From contig JAGAWH010000003.1 in NCBI GenBank assembly GCA_017941505.1, positions 1 through 35,578 on the forward strand: a stretch of DNA of 35,578 nucleotides, given 5' to 3'. Under the pieces are notes generated by a model. It was not told the DNA's origin. It worked only from the letters and a program-made list of their open reading frames with translations, and ran no database searches. Position 1 is the stretch's first letter; every line of letters starts with the position of its first letter. This DNA comes from Faecalicoccus sp. (GTDB taxonomy: Bacteria; Bacillota_I; Bacilli_A; Erysipelotrichales; Erysipelotrichaceae). The position numbers were made by a program, and so were the translations under genes. Shown one piece after another: positions 187-35,550 of the stretch.

Positions 187-623
187 TCACTTCTCTAATT
201 CAGCAATTTTGCGAATTCGATTTTTATGTCTTTCTCCTTCGCTGAATTTAGTGTTCAAGAATACTTCTACGATATCTTTTGCCGTTTCAATTCCTGTTGT
301 TCGCTGCCCCATTGCCAGCATGTTAGCATCATTGTGCTCACGTGTAAGTCTTGCCATAGTTGTATCTGTACAAAGTGCGCAGCGAATTCCTTTTATTTTA
401 TTTGCGGAAATAGAAATACCGATTCCGGTCCCGCACATAACAATACCGGTATCCACTTCTTTGGATGCAACCATTCTGGCAGCTGCCGAACCATAATCCG
501 GATAATCAACGCTGGCAGTAGAATCACATCCGCAATCTATCACCTGATGTCCCTGCTCCTCCAACATCTTTCTAATTTCGACTTTGTAGTCGTATGCTCC
601 ATGGTCACATGCTATAGCGATTT

Positions 624-627
<4 letters not shown>
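187..627 (-). CDS. rpiB: Ribose-5-phosphate isomerase B
   Basis: This 146-residue protein should interconvert ribose 5-phosphate and ribulose 5-phosphate in the non-oxidative pentose phosphate pathway, in the cytoplasm. It is full length for the RpiB/LacAB family. It shows the N-terminal CDHGA phosphate-binding motif, the catalytic cysteine in VMCGTGIG and the catalytic histidine in REHNDAN. The single complete RpiB chain, with no LacA/LacB pair or tagatose genes nearby, favours RpiB over galactose-6-phosphate isomerase. The start is set by AAGGAGGA (637-644) inside the end of the upstream amylase gene. The two genes overlap by ATGA, so they are probably translationally coupled. A strong terminator follows. 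Confidence 0.92.
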
Positions 628-3653
<3,026 letters not shown>

Positions 3654-4359: not shown

Positions 4360-7300
4360 TTATTCTTCAACTACGGTATTTTCCGTTACTTCTTCTACAG
4401 TGCTTTCAGGATTCTGTACTGCAGGAGCCTCTTCTACATTGGCGCTGACGATTTTATCAAACTGGTCATCCTGAACTTCTTTCATACGTGCAATACGTTT
4501 GTCACGAAGTTCTTTTGCCTTGGCTGCAACGATCGCATTCTGAGGACGTTCGCCGACACATCCGGTTCCGGCAGGAATTAACTTACCAATGATAACGTTC
4601 TCTTTCAAGCCAACCAGATAGTCAACTTTACCCTTAATAGTCGCATCTGTTAATACCTTTGTTGTTTCCTGGAAGGAAGCAGCAGATAAGAAGGAATCTG
4701 TTTCAACAGAAGCTTTAGAAATACCTAATAATACCGGTTTGAAAGTCGCAGGTGTTTTACCTGACAACAGAGCATCACGGTTGATGCGGGTCATTTCATT
4801 CAAGGATAACTGAACACCTACATTCAAGTCTGTATCGCCCTTATCGATGATAATAACTTTCTTCATCATCTGTTTGATCATAACTTCCAGATGCTTATCG
4901 GAAATTTCGATACCCTGAGACTGATAAACCTTCTTAACTTCCTTTAAGATGTAATCCTGCACTTCACTGACACCGGCAACCTTCAATAATTCCTTCGGAT
5001 CTAAAGGTCCTTCAGTTAATGCTTTACCGGCTTCAATCTGTTCACCGACTTCAACCCAGCTTCTTAATGTCTGGTTACCGTTGATCTTATGAACATGACT
5101 TTCCTGCTCGTTGGTAATCACAACTTCCTGACGAGGTGTACCTTCAATCTTATTAATGGCAGTAATTGTACCGGAAATCTGAGCGATAACCGCAACACCC
5201 TTCGGGCAGCGCGCTTCGAACAATTCTTCTACACGAGGAAGACCCTGTGTAATATCGCCGGCACCGGCAACACCACCGGTATGGAAGGTACGCATTGTTA
5301 ACTGAGTACCCGGTTCACCGATACTCTGGGCAGCCATAACGCCGACTGCTTCACCGATTTCAACATCTTTACCGGTAGCCATATTTCTACCATAACACAT
5401 ACGGCAGATACCATTACGTGATTTACATGTAAATACCGAACGAATTAACATCTTAGTGATGCCGGCATCTACAATACGCTTTGCGATGGCATCAGAAATA
5501 TATTCATCCGATGCGATAATCAATTCACCGGTCTTCGGATCAAATACATCCTGCTTAGAATAACGACCGTTAATACGATCGATGAAAGACTCAATCTTCG
5601 TATTTGTCTTACGGTCAATCAAATCACTGACCATATATCCCTTATCGGTACCGCAGTCATCATCCTTGATAATAACGTTTTGAGCAACGTCAACAAGACG
5701 ACGAGTTAAGTATCCGGATTCAGCGGTCTTTAAGGCAGTATCTGTTAAACCTTTACGTACACCGTGAGTGGATGTAAAGAACTCAGACACATTCAATCCT
5801 TCACGGAAGCATGAATAAATCGGAACTTCGATATAAGGCAGAATGTATTCACTGCTGCCTGCTTTCGAACCATGACCAGGCTTAGCCATCAATCCACGCA
5901 TACCGGCCAGCTGTGTAAAGTTAGAACGGTTACCACGGGCACCGGAACGGCTCATCATGTTGATTGGATTTTTACGAGGCATCGTTGCCATCAATCCATC
6001 AGTGATATCATTTTGAACACCATCCCACATTTCTTTTAACAGGGTACCCCACTCTTCTGTTGTCAGCATACCTTTGCGTAAGAAATATTTTAGTTTTTCT
6101 GCCTGTCCACGTCCAAAGTTCACGAACTGCTCCTTATTCGGAGCGACCTCAATGTCACTTAAGGATACCGTAATACCGGCTACTGTAGAATATTTGAATC
6201 CCATGTCCTTGATCTGGTCCATGATTTCAGATGTTTCATCTACGCTGAAACGGTTAAATACTTCGGCAATAACTTTACCTAAGTCTTTTTTCTTCACAGC
6301 AGATGTAATAGGCAATTGTGCAATATATTCCTTAATATTTTCACCAGGAGAAATAAAGTATTTATCCGGTGTTTTGTCAAAGTTCTCTTTTGTTACCTCA
6401 TTTAAATAAGGGAACTCAGATGGGAACATGTTATTAAAGATGATCTTACCAACTGTTGTGACAAGATAATCATTCGCATGAATCGGATCAAAAGAAGTCT
6501 TGTGCATACCTTTGACAGGAACCGCAATTCTGGAGTGCAGATGAACCTGACCGGTCTGATATGCCATCATTACTTCTTCAATATTGGCATATAAATGACC
6601 TTCATTGGCTGCATAAGTACGCCAGAGAGCTGCTTCCTTCGGACAGTCAGCTGCATCGAAACGCGCTGCTTCTTCTTCCAATTCAGCTTTGGTTTCTTCC
6701 ATAGTCAAATAGAAGTTACCCATAACCATATCCTGACCAGGAGTGACGATTGGCTTACCATCTTTCGGACCCAGAATGTTATGAGAGCCTAACATCATAA
6801 CTAATGCTTCGGCACGGGCTTCTTCACTCAAAGGTACGTGGATTGCCATCTGGTCACCATCGAAGTCCGCATTAAATGCAGTACATACAAGTGGATGCAG
6901 ACGCATTGCACGTCCTTCTACCAATTTTGGTAAGAACGCCTGGATACCTAAACGGTGAAGTGTCGGTGCACGGTTCATCAGTACAGGATATCCATCAATT
7001 ACCTTTTCTACAACATCCCAGATTCTCGGATCTCTTCTTTCGATTAACTTCTCGGCATTCTTAGGATTTGGTGCCAGTTTCTGGTTTACAATCTCGTTGA
7101 TGACAAACGGCTTAAATAAATTAATTGCCATTTCACGAGGAATACCGCACTGGTACATCTTCAAATCCGGTCCTACCGCGATAACGGAACGTCCGGAGAA
7201 GTCAACACGCTTACCTAACAGGTTCTGACGGAAACGTCCCTGCTTACCCTTCAAGGAATGAGAAAGTGACTTTAATGCACGTCCTCCGGCACCGGTAATC

Positions 7301-8229
7301 GGTTTTGAACGACGTCCGTTATCAATCAGGGCATCAACTGCTTCCTGCAGCATACGCTTTTCATTCTGAACGATAATATTAGGTGTACTTAAATCCAATA
7401 ATCTTTTTAAACGTGTATTACGAGTAATAACACGACGATATAAATCATTCAAATCACTGGTGGCAAAACGACCGCCATCCAGCTGTAACATAGGTCTTAA
7501 ATCAGGCGGAATAACCGGAATATGCTGCAGAATCATCCAGGAAGGATCGTTATCGCTGTTTCTAAACGCATTGACGGTATCCAAACGCTTGATTAATTTC
7601 TTGCGCTTTTCGCCACTGGCCTTTTCCAGCTGTTCCTGAATATCTTTATATTCTTCTTCTAAATCCACTGCCTGTAATAAACGAAGTACAGCTTCAGCAC
7701 CTGTCTGGGCTTCAAATCCATGGTTAGTAATCGGATCATACTTACCATAAATCGCAAGATTCTCACGATATTCGGATTCTGATAAAACCTGTTTATATGC
7801 AAGCTTAGAATCTCCGGCATTGGTAACAATGTAGCTGACAAAGTATACGACTTCTTCCAATTCCTTCGGTGTTACTCCTAAAAGTAATGCCATGCGGCTT
7901 GGAATACCGCGTAAATACCAAATATGTGCTACCGGTGCTGCTAAACGGATATGACCCATACGTTCACGACGTACGCTGGCTTTTGTGATTTCAACACCAC
8001 ATTTGTCGCAGACTACGCCTTTAAACCGAACCTTTTTGTATTTTCCACAGGCACATTCCCAGTCCTTTGTCGGGCCAAAGATCTTTTCGCAATACAAACC
8101 ATCTTTTTCTGCTTTTTGAGAACGATAGTTAATAGTCTCCGGTTTTAATACTTCTCCGTGAGACCATTCCAAAATAGTTTCCGGGCTCGCCAGACGAACC
8201 TGGATTGAGGCAAAGTTATTTATACTCAT
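4360..8229 (-). CDS. rpoC: RNA polymerase subunit beta-prime
   Basis: A 1,289-residue beta-prime subunit, longer than the roughly 1,200 residues of Bacillus. It carries the catalytic magnesium motif NADFDGD (453-459), the N-terminal zinc cysteines C59, C61, C74 and C77, the bridge-helix/trigger-loop blocks ([19 protein letters not shown]), and the second metal site around [13 protein letters not shown]. The C-terminus is a low-complexity Glu/Val tail. It starts 5 bp after the rpoB stop; its ribosome binding site (GAGGAGG) lies in the last codons of rpoB, so translation is probably coupled. A terminator follows directly, with no rplGB-rpsL-rpsG-fusA block behind it. Confidence 0.98.
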
Positions 8230-8234
8230 CTATA

Positions 8235-11200
8235 TTAAGCCTCCTCTTCTTCTACGATCTGCATGGAATCTTCCATAGAATCATCCATATCGTTAACCAG
8301 CTCTTCTTTGTGTTCAACGACTACATCCTCATCAGAAGCTGCCGCATCATCATCCATCTTTAAATCCACTTCGTTGTGGTTTTCATCAAACAAGCGGATA
8401 TCGATAGCTAGACCCTGCAACTCGTGAACAAGTACTCTGAATGATTCCGGAATACCTGCTTCCGGGATATCCTTTCCTTTGATAATAGCTTCATAAGTCT
8501 TAATACGACCCTGAATATCATCGGACTTAATTGTCAAAATTTCCTGCAATGTATGAGCTGCACCATATGCTTCTAATGCCCATACTTCCATTTCACCGAA
8601 ACGCTGACCACCATTCTGGGCTTTACCACCTAATGGCTGCTGAGTAACAAGTGAGTACGGACCTGTTGCACGGGCGTGCAGTTTATCGTCAACCATGTGG
8701 GCAAGTTTGATCATATACATGACACCGACACTGATTCTTTCATCAAATGCCTTACCTGTCTGTCCATCATACAATACCTGCTTACCATCTTTGGTCATAT
8801 TTGCTTCACGCATTACATCAGCCAAATCTTCATTGGATAATCCATCGAATACCGGAGTTGCGAATTTAACGCCTAATTTCTTAGCTGCATATCCTAAGTG
8901 GATTTCGAGAATCTGACCGATATTCATACGAGAAGGCACACCAAATGGGTTCAAGATAATATCAATCGGTGTTCCATCTGCAGTAAACGGCATATCTTCA
9001 ATTGGCAGGATCTTTGAGATGACACCCTTGTTTCCGTGACGTCCGGACATCTTGTCACCTTCAGAAATCTTACGTTTTTGAACGATGTAAACCTTAACAC
9101 GTGTATTTACTCCAGGAGGAAGATCCGATCCATCTCCTCTTCTGAAGATACGAACGGAATGAACAATTCCGGCACCACCGTGTGGTACTTTTAAGGAATT
9201 GTCACGAACCTCACGTGATCTCTCACCGAAGATTGCGAGCAATAGCTTTTCTTCCGGAGACACTTCACTCTGGCCCTTCGGAGTTACTTTACCTACCAGG
9301 ATATCGCCTTCCTTAACTTCAGCGCCTTCCATGATAATACCGTTTTCATCCAAATGACGAAGCGCTGCTTCACCTACGTTTGGAATATCGCGGGTAATTT
9401 CTTCAGGTCCTAATTTAGTCTCACGGCAGTCAATATCATACTGTTCAATATGAATAGAAGTATATACATCATCGCTGACCATACGTTCAGACATGATGAT
9501 CGCATCTTCATAGTTATATCCATACCATGTCATATAGGCAATGGTTACGTTCTGACCTAAGGCCAATTCACCATTTTGCATACTAGGACCATCGGCAAGG
9601 ATATCACCCTTTTCAACACGTTCGTTTACATCAACGATTGGTCTCTGGTTGATGCAGGTACTTGCGTTAGAACGGGCAAATTTACGTAATTGATATGTGT
9701 GATCTACACCATTGTCATCAGTTACGACAATACGTAAAGAATCAACATAAGAAACTACGCCATCTTCTTTGGCAACGATGCCGACACCGGAATCCTTGGC
9801 AATCTTATACTCGATACCGGTTCCGACATATGGTGAATGCGGCACTAACAAAGGCACAGCCTGACGCTGCATGTTGGCGCCCATCAACGCACGGGAAGCA
9901 TCATCGTTTTCTAAGAACGGAACGCAGGCAGTCGCAACCGATACAATCTGTTTCGGGCTGACGTCGGCCAGCTCTACATCTTCACGGTTGGCGATGATGG
10001 TATCACCGCTCTTACGGGCAACGACCTGATCGTTAACCAAGCGGCCGTCACGTACTTCGTTTGCCTGAGCAATTACGAAATCCGCTTCTTCATCCGCTGA
10101 TAAATAAACAGTATTGTTGTCATCTACCGTTCCGTCTTTATTTACAACACGATACGGAGTCTGAATAAATCCGTATTCATTAATTTTCGCATAAGTAGTT
10201 AAGTTTGAAATCAAACCAATGTTTGGACCTTCCGGTGTCTCGATTGGACAGATTCTTCCGTAGTGAGATGTATGTACGTCACGTACTTCAAATCCAGCAC
10301 GGTCTCGAGTTAATCCACCTGGACCTAATGCAGAAATACGACGCTTGTTGGTCAATTCTGCAAGCGGGTTTTGCTGGTCCATAAACTGAGATAGCTGAGA
10401 GCTTGAGAAGAACTCTTTAATAGCTGCTGTCAAAGGACGAATATTGGTTAACTTTCTCGGTGTTAAGTTATCAATTTCCTGAATGGACATACGTTCTTTA
10501 ACAACTCTTTCCATACGGGATAAACCGATACGGAACTGGTTCTGGATCAATTCACCGACAGAACGGATACGACGGTTACCCAGCATATCGATATCATCAG
10601 TTGTTCCGATTCCATCCATAACATTTAAGTTATAGGCAAAGAATGCGTACATATCAGACATTGTGATTGTATGCATATTTGCGTATGGGTCATTACCGAT
10701 GATTTTGATGGTGTTACCGTCTTTATCTTCAACATAGATTTCCTGTACACAGGCACCGATTAACCATGCAGTTAACGGACTTGAAGCAGCACGCTGCTTA
10801 ATGGCAAGCACTTTACCTGCATCCAGTTTGTCCCAATGTTCGTGTACTACATATGGTTTCACAAACATTTCGTATTCTTCATCAGTGATATCCTGTCCTT
10901 CAGCATTTGTTAAGCGGCCAAGGGCATATAAACGCTGACCGTAGTTCATTACGGCATCAAAGTTTTCTTCTGTAAGTTCGATTGGTTTTGCGATAAGTCC
11001 GCCGTAAACCGGAATTTCTTCCATAGTTGCTCTTAATACGTCAACATCCTGACGTGTTAAAACTGTACCTTTCGCAAAGAAATGATCATCATCCGGAGTA
11101 ATATCAGCAGCTGCGATACGTCCAATCAATCCGGCATTGTTGGAAGTCGGTACAGATACAACATCCTCTTCATGGAATTCAGAGCGGAATGGGAAAGGTG

Positions 11201-12347
11201 TGCAGTATAAACCTTTTGCCAATTCTTCTCTTAAGAGATTACGCTCATCACGATGAATCAGTGTTCCCTTTTTCATGAAGACATTGCCGTCAACATCCAT
11301 GATGTCATCTTTCAGAATCGTACCGTCCATACGACCGATCGCATTCAGCTTTTTGCGAAGCTTATAACGTCCGGCTTTTGTTAAGTCATAGCGGCGGTGA
11401 TCGAAGAATTTAGCCTGCATCAAAGAGATGGATCCGTTTAATGTCGGAATTTCATCACTTCTCTGGTTTTCATAAAATGACAATAAAGCTTCCTGAGTCG
11501 TCTTTACTTTATCGTTCATCAATGTCTGTTCGATTTCTTCGTATTTTCCAAAGAATGCAGTATACAATAATAAGTTGACATTCTTATAATCGCCGTCTTC
11601 TACATCTTTTGCGACATCATCCCAAGTTCTTTCCATCGCATGTAAAAAGACTTCCATAGCTGCAGTATCGCGTGTATCTTCATTGACATTAATGTCTAAA
11701 GACATACCGATAGCCTTAAATAAGATAGTGAAAAGAACCTTACGGCGGCGGTCAATAGAAACATTAATCGTACGTCCGGCAGAGGTTTTCTTTTGCTCTG
11801 TAATAAATTCAAGCCATGTTCCACGGCTCGGAATCAGTTCGCATGCATAATTTTCTTTACCTGTTTTATCATCGTAACTTTCCGAAAAATAAGCACCCGG
11901 TGAACGCACGATCTGCGATACGATTACACGTTCTGCACCATTGATGATGAAAGTTCCGGTTTCTGTCATTAACGGGAAATCACCTAAGAATACTTCTTCG
12001 GATTTCTGTTCCACTTCACCGGTATTCGGATCTGTGACTTCTAATACCATATCTGCATATAACGGAGCCACATATGTACATTCTCTGTACATGGATTCCT
12101 CAGCATTATATTTTGGTTCTACAAAATGATAATCGATAAAATTCAGTTTGATATTTTTACCATAGTTTTCAATAGGATAGATCTCATCGAATACTTCCCG
12201 GATACCTTGTTTCTTGAACCAGTCAAAAGAGTCTGTCTGAATCTCAACAAGATTTGGTAATTCCAGGTTTCCACTCACCTTTGAGTAATCCCTACGGATT
12301 GACTTTTTTCCGCAGGAGACAATGTGATACGCGTTGTTTTTGTCCAT
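8235..12347 (-). CDS. rpoB: RNA polymerase subunit beta
   Basis: A beta subunit of about 1,370 residues, clearly longer than the roughly 1,190 of Bacillus. Most extra length falls between RYKLRKKL (near 331) and [12 protein letters not shown] (near 592). The rifampicin-pocket block is intact ([18 protein letters not shown]), but the residue after LT, equivalent to E. coli H526, is asparagine (codon 10347-10349). Two ATGs are possible. The one at 12356 abuts the AAAGG ribosome binding site with no spacing. The one at 12347 has 9 nt spacing and gives MDKNNAY, so I prefer it. The acidic C-terminal tail carries the rpoC ribosome binding site. Transcription starts from a strong promoter about 80 bp upstream. 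Confidence 0.97.
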
Positions 12348-12428
12348 GCATGCCATCCTTTCGTTTATATTGAAGTCGCAAAAAATCTAAGGATTTTTAA
12401 TTGTCCGCAGACTATTATGCAATTTATT

Positions 12429-17020: not shown

Positions 17021-17812
17021 TTATTCTGCTTCCAAAGGAACTAAATCGTATTTCTCGCACATTGGCAAATAATCTTCACTGGCGAGGAATTTCTCGATAG
17101 CTTTATTAACCTTTTCAATTAATTCAGTGTTGCCTTTTTTCGCAATAATGAAGTTCTGCTCATCCATTAAGGACTCCTCTAACATTGTGAAGCTTCCGTT
17201 AGCTACATAGTTTTTCGCAACACCTAAGTCAATGATAGCTGCATCGTACTGGTTAGCAGACAGAGCATTCATGATATCCTGTACGTTCTTAAGTCCGGTA
17301 ACAGTAGCGCCTTCTACTTCATTAGCTGCAAGTTCACCGGTTGCTCCGGATTGTGCTACTAAGGATTTACCCTTTAAATCATCGACAGACTTGATATCAG
17401 ACCCTTCAGGAAGAACAGCAACCTGCTTTGTTCCTAAATAAGGTACAGACCATTCAACTTCACGGTCTTCAGAATATGTAAATCCGGAGATACCTAAATC
17501 AATCTGGTCGCCCTGAATCTGAGTGATGATATTATCGAAGTCCATCTGCTTGAACTCTAATTCAACGGTCTTACCTTCTTCTTCAGACATGTAACCTTCT
17601 AAAAGATTAACCATATCGATATCAAAACCGATCATTTCACCGTTTGTATCCAAAGATTCATACGGCTGATAATCCGGAGATACACCAACTGTGTATGTAA
17701 CTACATCAGAAGCGTCTTCCTTTCCGGCTGATCCTCCATTTGAACTGGAACATCCTGCAAGTGTTCCTACTGCCAATAATGCGGCCATTCCTGCTTTCAA
17801 TAATTTGTTCAT
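17021..17812 (-). CDS. Amino acid-binding lipoprotein of ABC transporter
   Basis: A 263-residue family 3 solute-binding protein. The signal sequence ends in a lipobox LAGC, followed by a Ser/Gly-rich linker, so it should be tethered outside the membrane. Family features are the start of lobe one (YTVGVSPDYQPYE), GFDIDMVNLL, DLGISGFTYSEDREVEWSVPY, and the hinge return near YDAAIIDLGVAKNYV. It is the first gene of the operon and is preceded by AAGGGAG and the T-box terminator. The ligand is not readable; the T-box suggests an amino acid matching codon GUG. Confidence 0.94.
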   Translation of the reverse strand: MNKLLKAGMAALLAVGTLAGCSSSNGGSAGKEDASDVVTYTVGVSPDYQPYESLDTNGEMIGFDIDMVNLLEGYMSEEEGKTVELEFKQMDFDNIITQIQGDQIDLGISGFTYSEDREVEWSVPYLGTKQVAVLPEGSDIKSVDDLKGKSLVAQSGATGELAANEVEGATVTGLKNVQDIMNALSANQYDAAIIDLGVAKNYVANGSFTMLEESLMDEQNFIIAKKGNTELIEKVNKAIEKFLASEDYLPMCEKYDLVPLEAE

Positions 17813-17837: not shown

Positions 17838-18069
17838 AAAAAAAGCGTCCTAAAACCAAACAAAGGACGACATAGCGCGGTACCACCTTACTTCCATCCG
17901 TTTTATACCGGATGACACCTCATTCTTAACGCGAATTCACGGTAACCGCCTCAAAAGTCGACAGTTCAGCTCCAAGCCACGTTCAGAAGCTTCTCATGAC
18001 AATTTTCACCAGCCATTGCCTCTCTACAACAAGAAATACTTCCTACTACTTCTCTTCATAGCCTTTACA
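17838..18069 (-). promoter_or_regulatory. T-box riboswitch of the amino acid ABC operon
   Basis: The minus strand carries the conserved T-box AAGGTGGTACCGCG (17876-17889). It is followed by the competing terminator CGTCCT/AGGACG (17846-17851 with 17864-17869) and seven Ts. Stem I is recognisable: AGTA at 18044-18047, the distal helix GGAAGT (18038-18043) with GCTTCT (17985-17990), an AGAGAG bulge and a GGCTGGTGAAA apical loop. On the 3' side GAA (17982-17984) completes the loop-E motif, and after one base the specifier reads GUG (17978-17980), followed by a purine. That predicts binding of uncharged tRNA-Val. The T-box call is firm; the specifier reading is moderately sure. Confidence 0.92.
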
Positions 18070-18232: not shown

Positions 18233-18275
18233 CGCAAATTTTGAATAAAAGTGTTGACAAGAAACATGAGGTGTG

Positions 18276-18313
18276 GGGCTTATTATCCATTTTCTCCAAT
18301 GGATAATAAGCCC
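18276..18313 (+). other. Long hairpin upstream of the transposase
   Basis: A perfect 16-bp stem (18276-18291 with 18298-18313) with a 6-nt loop is followed by TTTGTTT, 33 bp before the transposase ATG. TTGACA at 18254-18259 lies just upstream, but no -10 at normal spacing is visible. The hairpin may act as an attenuator limiting transposase made from external transcripts, as known for several insertion sequences; that role is inference. Confidence 0.6.
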
Positions 18314-18346
18314 TTTGTTTATAGGTATACATTTTTGGAGGTACTT

Positions 18347-19663
18347 ATGAACAACTTTAAACATCTTAAAAAGACTTTGTTCAATACTATTAAAATGTTG
18401 AACGACTCGCGTGCCCTGTTTGTCGAAAATCAGAAAACTGATTTCACCCGTAACAGAAAGCTCCCTTTCGATGCGGTTCTCAAAAGTGTCATCTGCTTTG
18501 AAGGAGGTGCCATGAATGATGAACTTCTCAAGTTTTCTGATTATTCGGTTAACACACCTACCGTCTCCGCAATGATACAGGCAAGAGATAAAATTAAGGT
18601 AGACGCATTTAAAGCTCTTTTTGACCGATTCAATGAAAAGACCGGGAAAAGAAAACTATATAAAGGCTACAGGCTTCTGGCTATTGATGGCTGTGAAGTT
18701 CCCATTGATAACACAGTCTATGATAAGGAGACTACTTTGATACGTCATGGCGGTACCAACAAGCCGTATTCTGCTTTTCATCTGAACCCGGTATATGATC
18801 TGCTGGAGTGCACGTTCGAAGACCTTATCATACAGGGAGAAGCCATGAATGATGAATGTAAGGCATTCTGCGAACTTGTGGACCGGTATAAAGGGGCCGG
18901 GGCCATATTTATCGCCGACAGGGGCTACGAGTCATATAACGGCTTTGAACATGTGGTTCATTCTGGCAACAAATATCTGATCAGGGTAAAGGACATTGAA
19001 TCGAAAACCAGTATCACGAAATCGCTGGGTCCTTTCCCGGGTAACGGCGAATTTGACGTGGATGTTTGTAAAACGTTAACGATTCGTCAGACAAATGAAA
19101 TCAAGAAAAATCCTCAAAAATATAAATTCTGCCCCAGTAATCTCCATTTTGACTATATGGACAAGATGCATCCGTTCTATGAATTTCGATGCAGGATCGT
19201 GCGTTTCAGAATCTCAGAGGAGTCCTACGAGACGGTCATTACCAATCTGGATAAAGAAGAATTTACGATAGAGGAGCTCAAGAATCTCTATAATTTGCGA
19301 TGGGGCATAGAAACTTCATTCCGACTTGTAAAATATGCAGTTGATATGAATGCATTCCATTCAAAAAAGAGAAAGCTGATCAAGCAGGAAATATATGCAA
19401 GGCTTCTTTTATATAACTTCTGTCAGCGGATGGTACATGACATAAATATCCCAAAGAAAAAGAAGAATAAATACTGGTATCAGATAAATTTTACGGAATC
19501 GTGTCACATCATAAGGACATTCCTAAAAAAGAAAAAGGGTGGAGCGGATCCACCCGTGGAATATCTGATAGCTAAATATATTCTTCCGATTCGCCCTGGA
19601 AGAAAAGAGCCACGGTACTCATCAGCTAAAAAAGCCGTGTGCTTTAACTACAGATACAACTAA
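18347..19663 (+). CDS. IS4-family transposase (DDE)
   Basis: A 438-residue DDE transposase. Catalytic residues are D114 (AIDGCE), D191 (IADRGYES) and E322 in the IS4 signature Y315-x2-R318-x3-E322-x6-K329. The C-terminus is rich in lysine and arginine. The frame is open further upstream (to 18251), but that part would run through the hairpin; the ATG at 18347 has TTGGAGGT at the right distance, so I chose it. No frameshift or stop interrupts it, so the element may be active. Confidence 0.94.
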   Translation: MNNFKHLKKTLFNTIKMLNDSRALFVENQKTDFTRNRKLPFDAVLKSVICFEGGAMNDELLKFSDYSVNTPTVSAMIQARDKIKVDAFKALFDRFNEKTGKRKLYKGYRLLAIDGCEVPIDNTVYDKETTLIRHGGTNKPYSAFHLNPVYDLLECTFEDLIIQGEAMNDECKAFCELVDRYKGAGAIFIADRGYESYNGFEHVVHSGNKYLIRVKDIESKTSITKSLGPFPGNGEFDVDVCKTLTIRQTNEIKKNPQKYKFCPSNLHFDYMDKMHPFYEFRCRIVRFRISEESYETVITNLDKEEFTIEELKNLYNLRWGIETSFRLVKYAVDMNAFHSKKRKLIKQEIYARLLLYNFCQRMVHDINIPKKKKNKYWYQINFTESCHIIRTFLKKKKGGADPPVEYLIAKYILPIRPGRKEPRYSSAKKAVCFNYRYN

Positions 19664-19721
19664 CGAAGATATTATATACTCTCAAAAAGGATGTGGCAAC
19701 ACATCTCCTTTCGTGCTGCCT

Positions 19722-19769
19722 GAAAAAGAAAAGCAGAAGATTATATAGCCTGGAGATAATCTTCTGCTT
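19722..19769 (-). terminator. IS right-end terminator, minus strand
   Basis: A perfect 14-bp stem (19731-19744 with 19756-19769) is followed on the minus strand by TTCTTTTTC. It would stop transcription entering the element from the DUF711 operon, replacing the host terminator that the insertion broke. Confidence 0.7.
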
Positions 19770-19782
19770 AGAATCAATCAAA

Positions 19783-19799
19783 TTAACTTAATGACATTG
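19783..19799 (-). repeat. IS right terminal inverted repeat
   Basis: An exact inverted copy of 18166-18182, immediately followed by the duplicated target. Confidence 0.93.
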
Positions 19800-19810
19800 C
19801 CGCATAACGA
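19800..19810. repeat. Right 11-bp target-site duplication of the IS
   Basis: CCGCATAACGA, identical to 18155-18165. It ends 4 bp short of the DUF711 gene stop codon (19815-19817) and formed the loop region of that gene's terminator before insertion. Confidence 0.93.
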
Positions 19811-30877: not shown

Positions 30878-32227
30878 TTAAGCGTTCTCCATTCTAATCT
30901 TGCGAAGGATAATAAAATAAGCACCAATCACAAGAATACCGGTAATAACCCATGAAATCGGATATACCATCAATACCATCAAAAAATCATGATAATAACG
31001 ATTCACAATAGTAACCCATCCGATTCGAACGATACAGGTTCCAAATACCGTAAGTAAGGCAGGCGTTAAAGAATAACCATATCCTCGTAAGCAGGAACCG
31101 GTAATTTCATAGGTTGCGATCAACCAATGGACAATTAATACATGCGTAGCACGCATAGATGCATATTCCACAACCTGCGGATCGGATGTAAATAAATGAA
31201 TCAAAGGAATACGACAGAACACAAAGGTAAAGTCGATCAAGGCAGAAAAGATTAAGCCGCACGCCAGTGATATCTTCCAGATATCGTGACAGCGATCCAG
31301 CTGTTTTGCGCCATAATTCTGTCCCAAAAAGGTAACCGCTGCCTGAGAGAATCCATTGACCACAAAGAATCCAATAATCTCAAAGTTAGCTGCCACAGAA
31401 GATCCGGCAACAACCGCTGATCCAAAGGTATTGAGTGCTGATTGAATCACTACATTCGACAAGGAGAATACCGTTCCCTGAAGTCCTGCCGGAACACCCA
31501 CTTTTAAGATTTGACGAAGTTCCTGGCCGGCTATCCCCAATTTTTTAAAGGAGAATTGCAGCTCTCCTTTTTCCTTCATCAAAAAGCGAAGAACCATACC
31601 GGAAGCAACAATATTCGATACTACGGTTGCGATTGCAACACCATCCACGCTTCTTTTAAATCCGACAACTAAGATTAAGTTCAATACCGCATTGATCACA
31701 CCGGCAATTACTAATGAATATACGGGACGTTTGGAGTCCCCAACGCTTCGCAAGATCGCAGAGCCAAAATTATAAAGCAAAATAAACGGCATTCCTAAGG
31801 CATAGATTCTAAGATATAAAACACCTAAGTCCATGATATTTTCCGGAATGGACATTAATACAAGTAATGGTTTTCCGACAAATTGAACCAATATCGCAAG
31901 AAAGATACCGCAAATCAAAGATACGGTAACGGAAGTATGCACCGCATTACTAAGACGGTCTTTCCGTCCGCTTCCGATATATCCGGCCACAAGTACAGAA
32001 CTTCCGGCAGATAACCCCACAAAGAAATTCACAAATAATGAGACTACCGGACCGTTGGCACCAACGGCAGCTAAAGCCTCCGAACTCGCAAAACGGCCGA
32101 CAACAGCCGTATCTACCATATTAAACAGCTGCTGCAAGACACTTCCTATTGCGATGGGAATCGCAAATAAAATGATCTTTTTTAATAACGGCCCACTTAA
32201 TAAATCCATTTTATTCGTATCGTCCAT
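30878..32227 (-). CDS. MATE-family efflux transporter
   Basis: A 449-residue transporter with twelve predicted membrane segments. It begins LLSGPLLKKIILFAIPIAIG and has the two MATE half-repeats, including QQLFNMVDTAVVGRF in the first and FGSAVVAGSSVAANFEIIGFFVVNGFSQA in the second. Such proteins export cationic compounds or drugs using sodium or proton gradients. The start at 32227 follows AGAGGAGAGG; the upstream frame extension to 32299 has no ribosome binding site. A possible promoter (TTGAAA, 17 bp, TATAGG) overlaps an 11-bp tandem repeat upstream. Confidence 0.93.
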   Translation of the reverse strand: MDDTNKMDLLSGPLLKKIILFAIPIAIGSVLQQLFNMVDTAVVGRFASSEALAAVGANGPVVSLFVNFFVGLSAGSSVLVAGYIGSGRKDRLSNAVHTSVTVSLICGIFLAILVQFVGKPLLVLMSIPENIMDLGVLYLRIYALGMPFILLYNFGSAILRSVGDSKRPVYSLVIAGVINAVLNLILVVGFKRSVDGVAIATVVSNIVASGMVLRFLMKEKGELQFSFKKLGIAGQELRQILKVGVPAGLQGTVFSLSNVVIQSALNTFGSAVVAGSSVAANFEIIGFFVVNGFSQAAVTFLGQNYGAKQLDRCHDIWKISLACGLIFSALIDFTFVFCRIPLIHLFTSDPQVVEYASMRATHVLIVHWLIATYEITGSCLRGYGYSLTPALLTVFGTCIVRIGWVTIVNRYYHDFLMVLMVYPISWVITGILVIGAYFIILRKIRMENA

Positions 32228-32265
32228 AATCCTCTCCTCTTTTCCCTCATCAAGTTTAACATATC

Positions 32266-32287
32266 TTTTCCCTATATTTTCCCTATA
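32266..32287. repeat. Two tandem 11-bp repeats upstream of the MATE gene
   Basis: TTTTCCCTATA occurs twice without a gap (32266-32276, 32277-32287). The period equals one helical turn and it overlaps the likely promoter, so it may be a regulator-binding site. Confidence 0.5.
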
Positions 32288-32410
32288 TTTGTATTTCAAG
32301 CACTTATACTCCTTATAACAATTTCTTATACCTCAAAAAAATATAAGCGGGATAGAGTTTCAAAGTTGTTCATTGTACAATAAAAGTACTTTGTAGAGAA
32401 AGGATCCCCT

Positions 32411-33838
32411 ATGAAAGAATACAAAAAGAATGGTAAGTTGCTTCACAAATTTCATACAGATTATGTGGTATGTGATACAGAAACAACAGGAAAAGGATAT
32501 CGTTATGACAGAATGACCGAAATCGGCTTGATTCGGGTACGCGACCATCAAATTGTGGATGAATTTCGAACATTCATCAATCCTCACCAAAAAATCAATC
32601 CTTTTGTGGTTAAATTAACCGGTATTCGTGATGATATGTTAGTAGATGCTCCTGATATCGATGATGTAAGAGATCAAATCATCGACTTTATCGGTGATGA
32701 TATCATCTTAGGTCATAACACAACCTTTGATTTAAACGTTCTGGCCGGTAATTTAAAGATGGATATTGAAAACGATTATATGGATACTGTATGGTTTGCC
32801 CGTCATGCCGACCTTCCTACTCCCAACAATAAATTAGAGACCTTGAAAGAGTTCTTTCAGATTCCCAATATTTCCCATCGGGCTCTTGATGACTGCTCTA
32901 CCACAAAGCAGGTTTACGATCATTTAAGAGGCATTATGGAAAAGGACCCGGTTGAGCAAGGTACTGTATTAAAGGATTTTATTCAAAGAATGCAGGATAA
33001 AGGTGTGGTAATCAATTATGCCCAAACCATACAAAACAGAACCTTGATTGAGGAATACTGCCGTTTAAAGAAAAAGACAAGGCTCAATACCTATTCGGTA
33101 TCCAAGACCATTACCTCGTTAGCAGCAGGGATTGCCTTAGAAGAGAATTTATTTCATTTGGATGATCTTATCATAGATTACTTTGATTTGGATTTTGAAG
33201 CGGACCCTTATGTATCGATGATCACGATTGAACATCTTCTCACAATGACTAGCGGTCTGGATAAAGCTTTATTCTTTATGGATGATTCCAAACGTTATAC
33301 AGAAAAGGATTGGGTACGCTACTTCTTTAAACAGAAATTCCCGCATATACCGGGTACTCATTTTCAATATTCCAATTTCAATACGTATATTTTAGGATGC
33401 ATCATAGAAAAAGTATCCGGAATGACTTTGGGACAGTATGTTCATGATAAATTGTATCAACCTTTAGGTATCAACAACATTGACTGGCTAAGCTGCCCGA
33501 TGGGACATACGGCAGCTGCCAATTCTTTCTTTATGACCATTGATGAAATGTCAAAGATCGGCCTTTTGATCTTAAATAAAGGAAGATGGAATAATAAACA
33601 GATTGTTCCGGAATGGTATCTAGATAAGGCGGTAAAACCATATATCCAGAATTATGGATACTCTTTCTGGATTGACGAAGATTATCAATGTTTTAGAGCC
33701 GAGGGTAATTACGGACAGTTCATTATCGTAGTTCCAAGTCATCAGCTTGTGATCACCATGCAGTCATTAGATAATAAGTCTTTGTATAAAGACATACAAA
33801 AATACCTATTAAAACCAATTATAAAGGCGAACCAATAA
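32411..33838 (+). CDS. DEDDh exonuclease fused to a serine beta-lactamase-like hydrolase
   Basis: An unbroken 475-residue frame holding two unrelated enzyme domains. Residues about 15-175 form a DEDDh 3'-5' exonuclease (DnaQ/epsilon-like): D22 and E24 in CDTETTG, D107 in GHNTTFDLNVL, H156 and D161 in HRALDD. Residues about 185-470 form a class C/serine beta-lactamase-type hydrolase: S229-x-x-K232 (YSVSKTITS), Y320-S-N322, and AEGNYGQ at 430-436 where the third KTG/HxG-like motif belongs. There is no signal peptide, so both halves should be cytoplasmic, unlike most beta-lactamase relatives. AAAGGAT lies 7 nt before the ATG. It is transcribed divergently from the MATE gene and has its own terminator. 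The joint role is unknown. Confidence 0.88.
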   Translation: MKEYKKNGKLLHKFHTDYVVCDTETTGKGYRYDRMTEIGLIRVRDHQIVDEFRTFINPHQKINPFVVKLTGIRDDMLVDAPDIDDVRDQIIDFIGDDIILGHNTTFDLNVLAGNLKMDIENDYMDTVWFARHADLPTPNNKLETLKEFFQIPNISHRALDDCSTTKQVYDHLRGIMEKDPVEQGTVLKDFIQRMQDKGVVINYAQTIQNRTLIEEYCRLKKKTRLNTYSVSKTITSLAAGIALEENLFHLDDLIIDYFDLDFEADPYVSMITIEHLLTMTSGLDKALFFMDDSKRYTEKDWVRYFFKQKFPHIPGTHFQYSNFNTYILGCIIEKVSGMTLGQYVHDKLYQPLGINNIDWLSCPMGHTAAANSFFMTIDEMSKIGLLILNKGRWNNKQIVPEWYLDKAVKPYIQNYGYSFWIDEDYQCFRAEGNYGQFIIVVPSHQLVITMQSLDNKSLYKDIQKYLLKPIIKANQ

Positions 33839-33850
33839 CGATTCGCCTTT
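33823..33850. terminator. Terminator after the fusion gene
   Basis: The 9-bp stem AAAGGCGAA/TTCGCCTTT, with a loop that contains the stop codon, is followed by TTGTCTCTTT on the plus strand. It may also end the convergent GH1 gene. Confidence 0.8.
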
Positions 33851-33877
33851 TTGTCTCTTTGGAAAAAGAAATTGTAT

Positions 33878-35362
<1,485 letters not shown>

Positions 35363-35418: not shown

Positions 35419-35445
35419 ATAAAAAGCCTGTTATTTGACCAATGT

Positions 35446-35477
35446 CATTCAGTTAAGCCAAGGCTATGTACTGAATG
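35446..35477. repeat. Inverted repeat upstream of the second GH1 gene
   Basis: CATTCAGT (35446-35453) and ACTGAATG (35470-35477) flank a small AGCC/GGCT inverted repeat. It lies upstream of the promoter and could be an operator or a folded leader of something further right. Confidence 0.35.
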
Positions 35478-35497
35478 TCTACTGAAATCTCTCAAAG

Positions 35498-35550
35498 AAA
35501 GAGCGAACTTCAATTGAGATAGTTTGAAGTCCGCTCTTTTCTAATTTTTG
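35498..35550. terminator. Terminator-like hairpin at the right edge
   Basis: A 15-position stem with one mismatch (35498-35512 with 35525-35539) is followed by TCTAATTTTT on the plus strand and by TTTCTTTG on the minus strand. It probably ends a minus-strand unit lying beyond the right edge. Confidence 0.6.

Follow-up and report, generated by a model that had tools for sequence, protein, structure and literature searches.

An end-to-end fusion of a DEDDh exonuclease and a class-C beta-lactamase-like serine hydrolase in Faecalicoccus sp.

The stretch of Faecalicoccus sp. DNA analyzed here (the window; 35,578 nucleotides, contig JAGAWH010000003.1) carries at 32411-33838 on the plus strand one open frame of 475 codons plus stop, with an ATG start and no internal stops, that joins a DEDDh 3'-5' exonuclease domain to a class-C beta-lactamase-like serine hydrolase domain. 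At the sequence level the fusion is present, is conserved in four sequences and has intact active-site residues in both halves. We consider it fairly probable that two ordinary cytoplasmic enzymes were joined end to end, recently and in a single event, with independent function of the halves as the likeliest state. In such a fusion, the stop of the first gene and the start of the second would have disappeared and about 7-8 residues would now link the proteins, with the halves keeping the jobs of their free relatives, i.e., a 3'-end nuclease and a small-molecule esterase, amidase or acyltransferase. We infer that both halves are active, each in its free relatives' role, and that the link between them would be expression, not a shared substrate. 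The two-domain architecture appears to be undescribed, each half being of a large known kind and the combination being new and confined to a narrow clade. The first-pass annotation knew of no described role for the pairing, and our text searches, which did not take in most subscription papers and are weak evidence of absence, likewise found no description of an exonuclease-serine hydrolase pairing, the titles that came up dealing with polyadenylation and DNA maintenance proteins. The fusion could provide a natural test case for whether gene fusion implies a shared pathway.

Two Pfam families only, RNase_T (PF00929) and Beta-lactamase (PF00144), matched the 475-residue protein at E values up to 0.001. 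The RNase_T match covered residues 19-169 and the whole profile (positions 1-164 of 164; E 8.4e-28, 98.4 bits against a curated cut-off of 24), and the exonuclease domain was placed at residues 16-177 (32456-32941, plus strand) by Pfam, residue check, alignment and models. The DEDDh residues D22, E24, D107, H156 and D161 are in place in the window and in a second DNA sequence of the fusion, L001, and were invariant in 25 of 25 aligned exonucleases, two of which are fusions. The modelled N-terminal half was assigned to the exonuclease fold, its last helix spanning residues 158-176 in the first model and 158-178 in an exonuclease-only model (alignment A4). Members of the DEDDh family are two-metal 3'-5' nucleases with a histidine as general base. 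The N-terminal half, of the stand-alone type, would be expected to strip nucleotides off DNA or RNA 3' ends by two-metal catalysis, with D22, E24, D107 and D161 binding the two metal ions and H156 acting as the general base. The nearest known domains are the PolC-type, DinG-type and epsilon-type DEDDh domains (PDB 2p1j, 9ii8/8zef, 2gui); unlike these, the fusion has no polymerase, helicase or clamp-binding part and carries a serine hydrolase at its C-terminal end instead. A replicative DnaQ/PolC subunit was not indicated, as the NCBIfam equivalogs stayed below their cut-offs for the exonuclease half (TIGR01406, 71.3 of 222.7; PRK05711, 72.3 of 196; PolC, 114.1 of 873 bits). Among the best 25 of 63 NCBIfam families, the only one over its cut-off was the broad subfamily_domain TIGR00573 (90.5 of 71.5).

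DEDDh nucleases are known from CRISPR and other defence systems, and PADLOC returned matches to DEDDh and to the candidate system PDC-S48, which would fit an antiphage or repair effector. These matches, however, covered only residues 16-179, that is, the generic exonuclease domain. A full-length PDC-S48 match was not found, the exonuclease part of the profiles alone being matched (positions 4-173 of 411 and 18-176 of 512). The scanned genes of the window are mostly metabolic, transport, regulatory and transcription genes, with one transposase. Additionally, viral contigs gave one exonuclease-only match and no fusion, and coverage of 80% of the fusion was reached in none of 510 matched plasmid records and none of 63 matched phage records. 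The defence role raised in the first-pass annotation thus draws no PADLOC support beyond a generic exonuclease domain, and we regard such an effector as most improbable.

In the C-terminal half, PF00144 matched residues 208-452 (E 3.4e-33, 115.7 bits against a curated cut-off of 27), and the domain was placed at residues 185-475 (32963-33835, plus strand) by Pfam, residue check, alignment and model. The SxxK (S229-K232) and YxN (Y320-N322) motifs are in place in the window and L001, and the third motif, GxxGQ (G432-N-Y-G435-Q436, preceded by E431), was found in all four fusions. Counted in the hydrolase columns of an 86-row alignment (A2), the residues kept in 58 free hydrolases were S229, K232 and Y320 (57 each), N322 (55), G432 (58) and Q436 (57). 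Judged from these alignments, the conservation of catalytic residues in both halves is far beyond chance. Every residue that the first-pass annotation had placed in one uninterrupted frame was recovered, with both Pfam domains over cut-off, and its picture of two apparently active domains in one probably cytoplasmic protein agrees with the sequence data.

The "beta-lactamase fold" of this half is the serine type (PF00144) and not the metallo-beta-lactamase fold, which is known from nucleases such as RNase J and SNM1. A metallo-beta-lactamase-fold nuclease was considered and rejected, as no such Pfam domain matched at E up to 0.001. AmpC class C beta-lactamase (NF033085, cut-off 415 bits) was also rejected, since this family was not among the best 25 of 63, the lowest of which scored 39.4 bits; the close fusion member P0002 scored 47.7 bits against it. 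The third motif of class C beta-lactamases is KTG, which the fusion lacks, its place being taken by E431-G432-N-Y-G-Q436.

No NCBIfam among the best 25 of 63 families exceeded its cut-off for the hydrolase half. Its best match was the 3-succinylated cholic acid synthase BAS-suc (NF045925; E 1.5e-42 over 228 residues), of which it is no member, scoring 145.7 bits against a cut-off of 800 on a model of 498 positions. A commentary (PMC11749272) and a review (PMC13275213) describe BAS-suc as a homologue of beta-lactamases with bile acids as the molecules it acylates. The modelled hydrolase half resembled in fold Lsa45 of Leptospira (PDB 8dc1), a separate protein that its PDB title calls a penicillin-binding protein with esterase activity. 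The 6-aminohexanoate-dimer hydrolase NylB, macrolactin acyltransferase and family VIII esterases showed 17-21% identity and have no nuclease domain. In PF00144-type enzymes a serine is acylated with the help of lysine and tyrosine, and the acyl group is passed to water or another acceptor. The C-terminal half would be a cytoplasmic hydrolase from the group that comprises family VIII esterases, 6-aminohexanoate-dimer hydrolase and Lsa45. With K232 and Y320 serving as base, its S229 would be acylated by a small-molecule ester or amide, and the acyl group would then go to water or a different acceptor. These results draw attention to an apparently cytoplasmic class-C-type serine hydrolase subfamily whose best NCBIfam match is a bile-acid-acylating enzyme. 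Another enzyme combination was seen among the best 120 hydrolase relatives, 12 of which carry PF04794 beside PF00144 (P0081, P0082, P0084, P0087-P0090, P0093-P0095, P0103 and P0105).

Outside the fusion clade, relatives carry the exonuclease and the hydrolase as separate genes. The free hydrolases are 289-343 residues long (median 303; 58 aligned), and those of about 300 residues encoded alone include P0003, the nearest among the matches listed (56% identity to the hydrolase half), P0007 of Clostridium nigeriense (52%) and P0017 of Liquorilactobacillus vini (48%). The free exonucleases measure 170-234 residues (24 aligned) and share 36-45% identity with the exonuclease half; L006 (42%), L007 (41%) and L044 (45%), from the same order, are 181-195 residues long and encoded alone. 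A hydrophobic N-terminal stretch (15-residue mean over 1.6 within the first 45 residues) was found in none of the 58 free hydrolases. The free members of the subfamily already look cytoplasmic, so that the fusion would not have moved the hydrolase, and the puzzle of a cytoplasmic SxxK enzyme is therefore older than the fusion, which is itself probably cytoplasmic. The premise that SxxK hydrolases usually act outside the cell, from which the first-pass annotation had started, does not apply to this subfamily.

In 10 of 12 aligned rows, residue 2 of the free hydrolase lines up with fusion residue 184-185; the aligner set the first letter in the wrong place, and the two remaining rows are off by more letters. 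Together with the lengths of the free proteins, this start mapping indicates that two complete proteins came to be linked through about 7-8 residues. The predicted structure consists of two confidently folded domains and a loose linker (residues 178-184; 32942-32962, plus strand) with no defined mutual arrangement (predicted template modelling score, pTM, 0.62); residues 178-183 had a predicted local distance difference test score below 50. For the interdomain contact, which the first-pass annotation had proposed for structure prediction, the model gave no fixed arrangement. This model was built from alignment A3, the sole success in 40 random draws of hydrolase rows, in which the free rows remained out of register at the final exonuclease helix. 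The nearest 6 and 12 hydrolases could be aligned, and sets of 20, 30 and 58 and all spread sets could not. In A2, 24 of 24 exonuclease rows landed on the hydrolase half, and only its hydrolase columns and sequences were used.

Three more gapless 475-residue fusions with the same junction were found, namely P0001 (98% identity; 19 member sequences), L001 (90%) and P0002 (81%; 2 member sequences), P0001 and P0002 representing two different source collections. L001 is a contig of a metagenome-assembled genome deposited as Erysipelothrix rhusiopathiae RUG11795, and contig C49 of genome G001 agrees with it in length and match position. Because the same end-to-end fusion stands in three further sequences, it is no assembly error, and an artefact joining two contigs or genes is refuted by the junction shared by the window, L001, P0001 and P0002, its probability being practically negligible. 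The first-pass annotation had named two signs that would speak against the fusion. Separate halves in relatives do exist, outside the clade, but the fusion is not confined to this assembly and shows no break around residue 180, which all four fusions pass without a gap in the alignment. The four fusions form one clade in both trees (exonuclease, 100/100; hydrolase, Shimodaira-Hasegawa-like approximate likelihood ratio test 100), the exonuclease tree carrying long-branch warnings and being used for the fusion clade only. This clade suggests, on tree evidence, that the fusion arose once, in one lineage.

The whole-protein search matched 1 of 272 genomes of the family of G001, 1 of 315 of its order and 1 of 392 in a phylum sample, the match always being G001 itself, and again 1 of 60 in a further genome set. 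These sets overlap and were all confined to the phylum of G001; few candidates were scored per genome, and in the sets of 272, 315 and 392 weak matches were masked by stricter E limits. In the protein database both Pfam domains occurred together in P0001 and P0002 only, which were 2 of the best 120 of 366 whole-protein matches, 2 of the best 120 of 340 matches in a 40-row profile search and 2 of 8 matches in an exonuclease-region search. A genome-contig scan for close relatives returned three loci, one of them (L001) whole-length. Thus, the domain search for the same order elsewhere, as the first-pass annotation had suggested, gave P0001, P0002 and L001 only among the matches listed, all of one clade; such searches rely on shared words or similarity and could miss a very diverged fusion. 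G001 (85% complete) has no other exonuclease of this close kind among its PF00929 matches, which otherwise comprise two PolC-sized frames and one 305-residue frame (43.8 bits). The two PolC-sized frames, of 1448 and 1451 residues on contigs C113 and C274 of one bin, could stem from contamination (6%) or from an additional polymerase.

Comparison of the window with L001 gave a nonsynonymous rate (dN) of 0.050 and a synonymous rate (dS) of 0.89 for the exonuclease half, and 0.065 and 0.67 for the hydrolase half (NG86). The low dN relative to dS in each half indicates that both are under purifying selection. These values bear on the idea of a near-neutral accident, in which merged genes keep separate jobs, splitting is unlikely and the hydrolase may also start internally. 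That the fusion was found in one clade only, in the searches made, would suit it, as would a speculative candidate internal start, M176 (ATG at 32936-32938, plus strand), which is kept with an upstream AAGAGG in both DNA sequences and would yield the hydrolase alone as a 300-residue product, close to the free median of 303. The AAGAGG spacing is short (4 nt), however, and only two DNA sequences carry the comparison, while a dN/dS of about 0.08 over a dS of 0.78 for the whole gene suggests that both halves are needed; we hold a near-neutral accident to be unlikely. A candidate internal start at M176 would also fit independent function of the halves.

Several observations weigh against the reading of two independent enzymes joined end to end. 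Some benefit of linkage is plausible, because a dS of 0.78 and a member at 81% identity exceed the expected lifetime of a useless fusion. The pTM of 0.62 may leave room for a ligand-dependent contact between the modelled domains, and a MATE exporter adjoins the fusion in both genomes seen. Additionally, no measured activity was found for the fusions or their close free relatives in the searches made here.

A shared pathway was weighed against the neighbourhoods of the free genes. Relatives of the partner half were absent from their surroundings in 24 loci (12 hydrolase, 12 exonuclease; 4.8-12.5 kb; closed open reading frames, ORFs, of at least 70 residues), counts that leave aside L083, whose hydrolase ORF was lost to a longer overlapping frame, and L102, a different G001 exonuclease locus. 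With these 24 loci lacking adjacency, differing contexts and no fixed domain arrangement, the functional link between the domains entertained in the first-pass annotation is unsupported. A two-step enzyme, in which the hydrolase takes an acyl or peptidyl moiety off a nucleic acid or nucleotide conjugate and the nucleic acid thus exposed is degraded or trimmed by the exonuclease, would explain why the physical fusion is kept in four sequences with both active sites intact. It sits poorly with the absence of adjacency, the unfixed predicted arrangement, the occurrence of the hydrolase as a free protein beside transporters or a protease, and the pairing of PF00144 with other enzymes such as PF04794, and we judge it quite unlikely. 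A dedicated bifunctional enzyme, with the hydrolase stripping an acyl or peptidyl group, the DEDDh domain degrading the freed 3' end and the MATE protein exporting the released group, seems very unlikely. In general, a joint pathway of the halves, whether in nucleotide conjugates or in defence, is possible but unsupported. To our knowledge, no serine beta-lactamase-fold enzyme acting on nucleic acids has been reported; a common substrate of the two halves, if there were one, would bring nucleic acids within the reach of serine beta-lactamase-fold chemistry.

The genes beside the free hydrolases raise a further alternative, that of transport-linked detoxification or metabolism, in which the hydrolase would modify a small acylated compound, the MATE protein would export it or its product, and the exonuclease would be a passenger or handle nucleic acid ends that this compound had damaged. 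Neighbours were family-scanned at 11 of 13 hydrolase loci (all except L083 and L089) and 10 of 12 exonuclease loci (all except L095 and L098). One chosen neighbour at 10 of the 13 hydrolase loci was assigned by Pfam to MFS (six), M48 protease (two), GcpE (one) or no family (one), and three more neighbours were a ZIP transporter (L080), an ABC transporter (L085) and a gene without family (L088); these neighbours were chosen, mostly as the gene of about 400 residues, so that the count is not blind. The six MFS neighbours form three sets with little similarity between sets. Ten of those genomes have 3-23 MFS matches each, so MFS adjacency is not expected often; the adjacency is suggestive, though the neighbours were not blindly chosen. 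The MATE gene is also divergent from and adjacent to the fusion in both the window and L001, where the adjoining copy is 82.6% identical to that of the window. On the other hand, not all of the chosen neighbours are transporters, several free-hydrolase loci come from closely related genomes, MATE and MFS belong to separate families, and the divergent MATE and fusion genes form no operon. A relative of the window's MATE protein was found at E 1e-5 in none of 12 free-hydrolase loci. Altogether, we view transport-linked metabolism as rather doubtful. Neighbours or near-neighbours of the free exonucleases included a HAD phosphatase in three loci and a Na+/H+ antiporter in two, with a cyclase-like gene, a nucleoside hydrolase, DUF3737 and an EF-G-like gene in one locus each and others without family.

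The MATE-family exporter gene of the window lies at 30878-32299 on the minus strand, with a likely start at 32227 (ORF, Pfam and copy comparison), and a GH1 glycosidase gene, a neighbour only, lies at 33878-35359 on the minus strand (ORF and Pfam). The former is divergent from and the latter convergent with the fusion, which therefore cannot be cotranscribed in an operon with either of them. Between the window and G001, identity is 97% across GH1 and across 10.8 kb of nearby DNA, and 94% across the MATE region. The corresponding dS values were 0.15 for GH1 and 0.18 for MATE (first G001 copy), and 0.78 for the fusion. L001 carries two tandem MATE genes (217-3009) where the window has one. The first is 97.6% identical to the window's gene and is its partner, and the second, which adjoins the fusion in G001/L001, is the copy at 82.6%. 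The fusion in L001 (3181-4608) aligns with 32411-33838 of the window, with an identical-codon fraction ranging from 0.50 (residues 176-200) to 1.00 (residues 351-375). A stretch of near-identical codons at residues 351-400 was observed despite the high overall dS. The dS of the fusion, far above that of the flanking genes, and the second MATE copy provide a lead, from two genomes only, that the fusion locus may have been exchanged by recombination, or duplicated with subsequent sorting of paralogues. In these two genomes, the MATE gene may travel with the fusion locus. An extra gene after the G001 fusion looks by eye like an alpha/beta hydrolase gene.

By eye, a ribosome-binding-site-like AAAGGA (32399-32404, plus strand) lies 6 nt 5' of the ATG of the fusion, and a possible terminator (33823-33852, plus strand) consists of a 9-bp inverted repeat (AAAGGCGAA/TTCGCCTTT) overlapping the stop codon, followed by a T-run. 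A consensus terminator scan with a loop limit of 8 found none at the 3' end of the fusion, the loop of the repeat seen by eye being 10, and promoter and terminator matches were no more numerous than in shuffles.

Elsewhere in the window, a DDE transposase gene (PF01609) lies at 18251-19663 on the plus strand, and a T-box leader (RF00230, 112.8 bits) at 17860-18068 on the minus strand, just upstream of a minus-strand ORF (17021-17812). Interspersed repeats were found at 19713-19803 (98-100% identity in three G001 contigs) and at 35420-35526 (90-95% identity in eight G001 contigs, in seven of them from base 1). The rpoC and rpoB genes occupy 4360-12356 on the minus strand, and the rpoB frame, of 1373 residues, may hold an insertion, its first domain match being stretched over residues 35-643.
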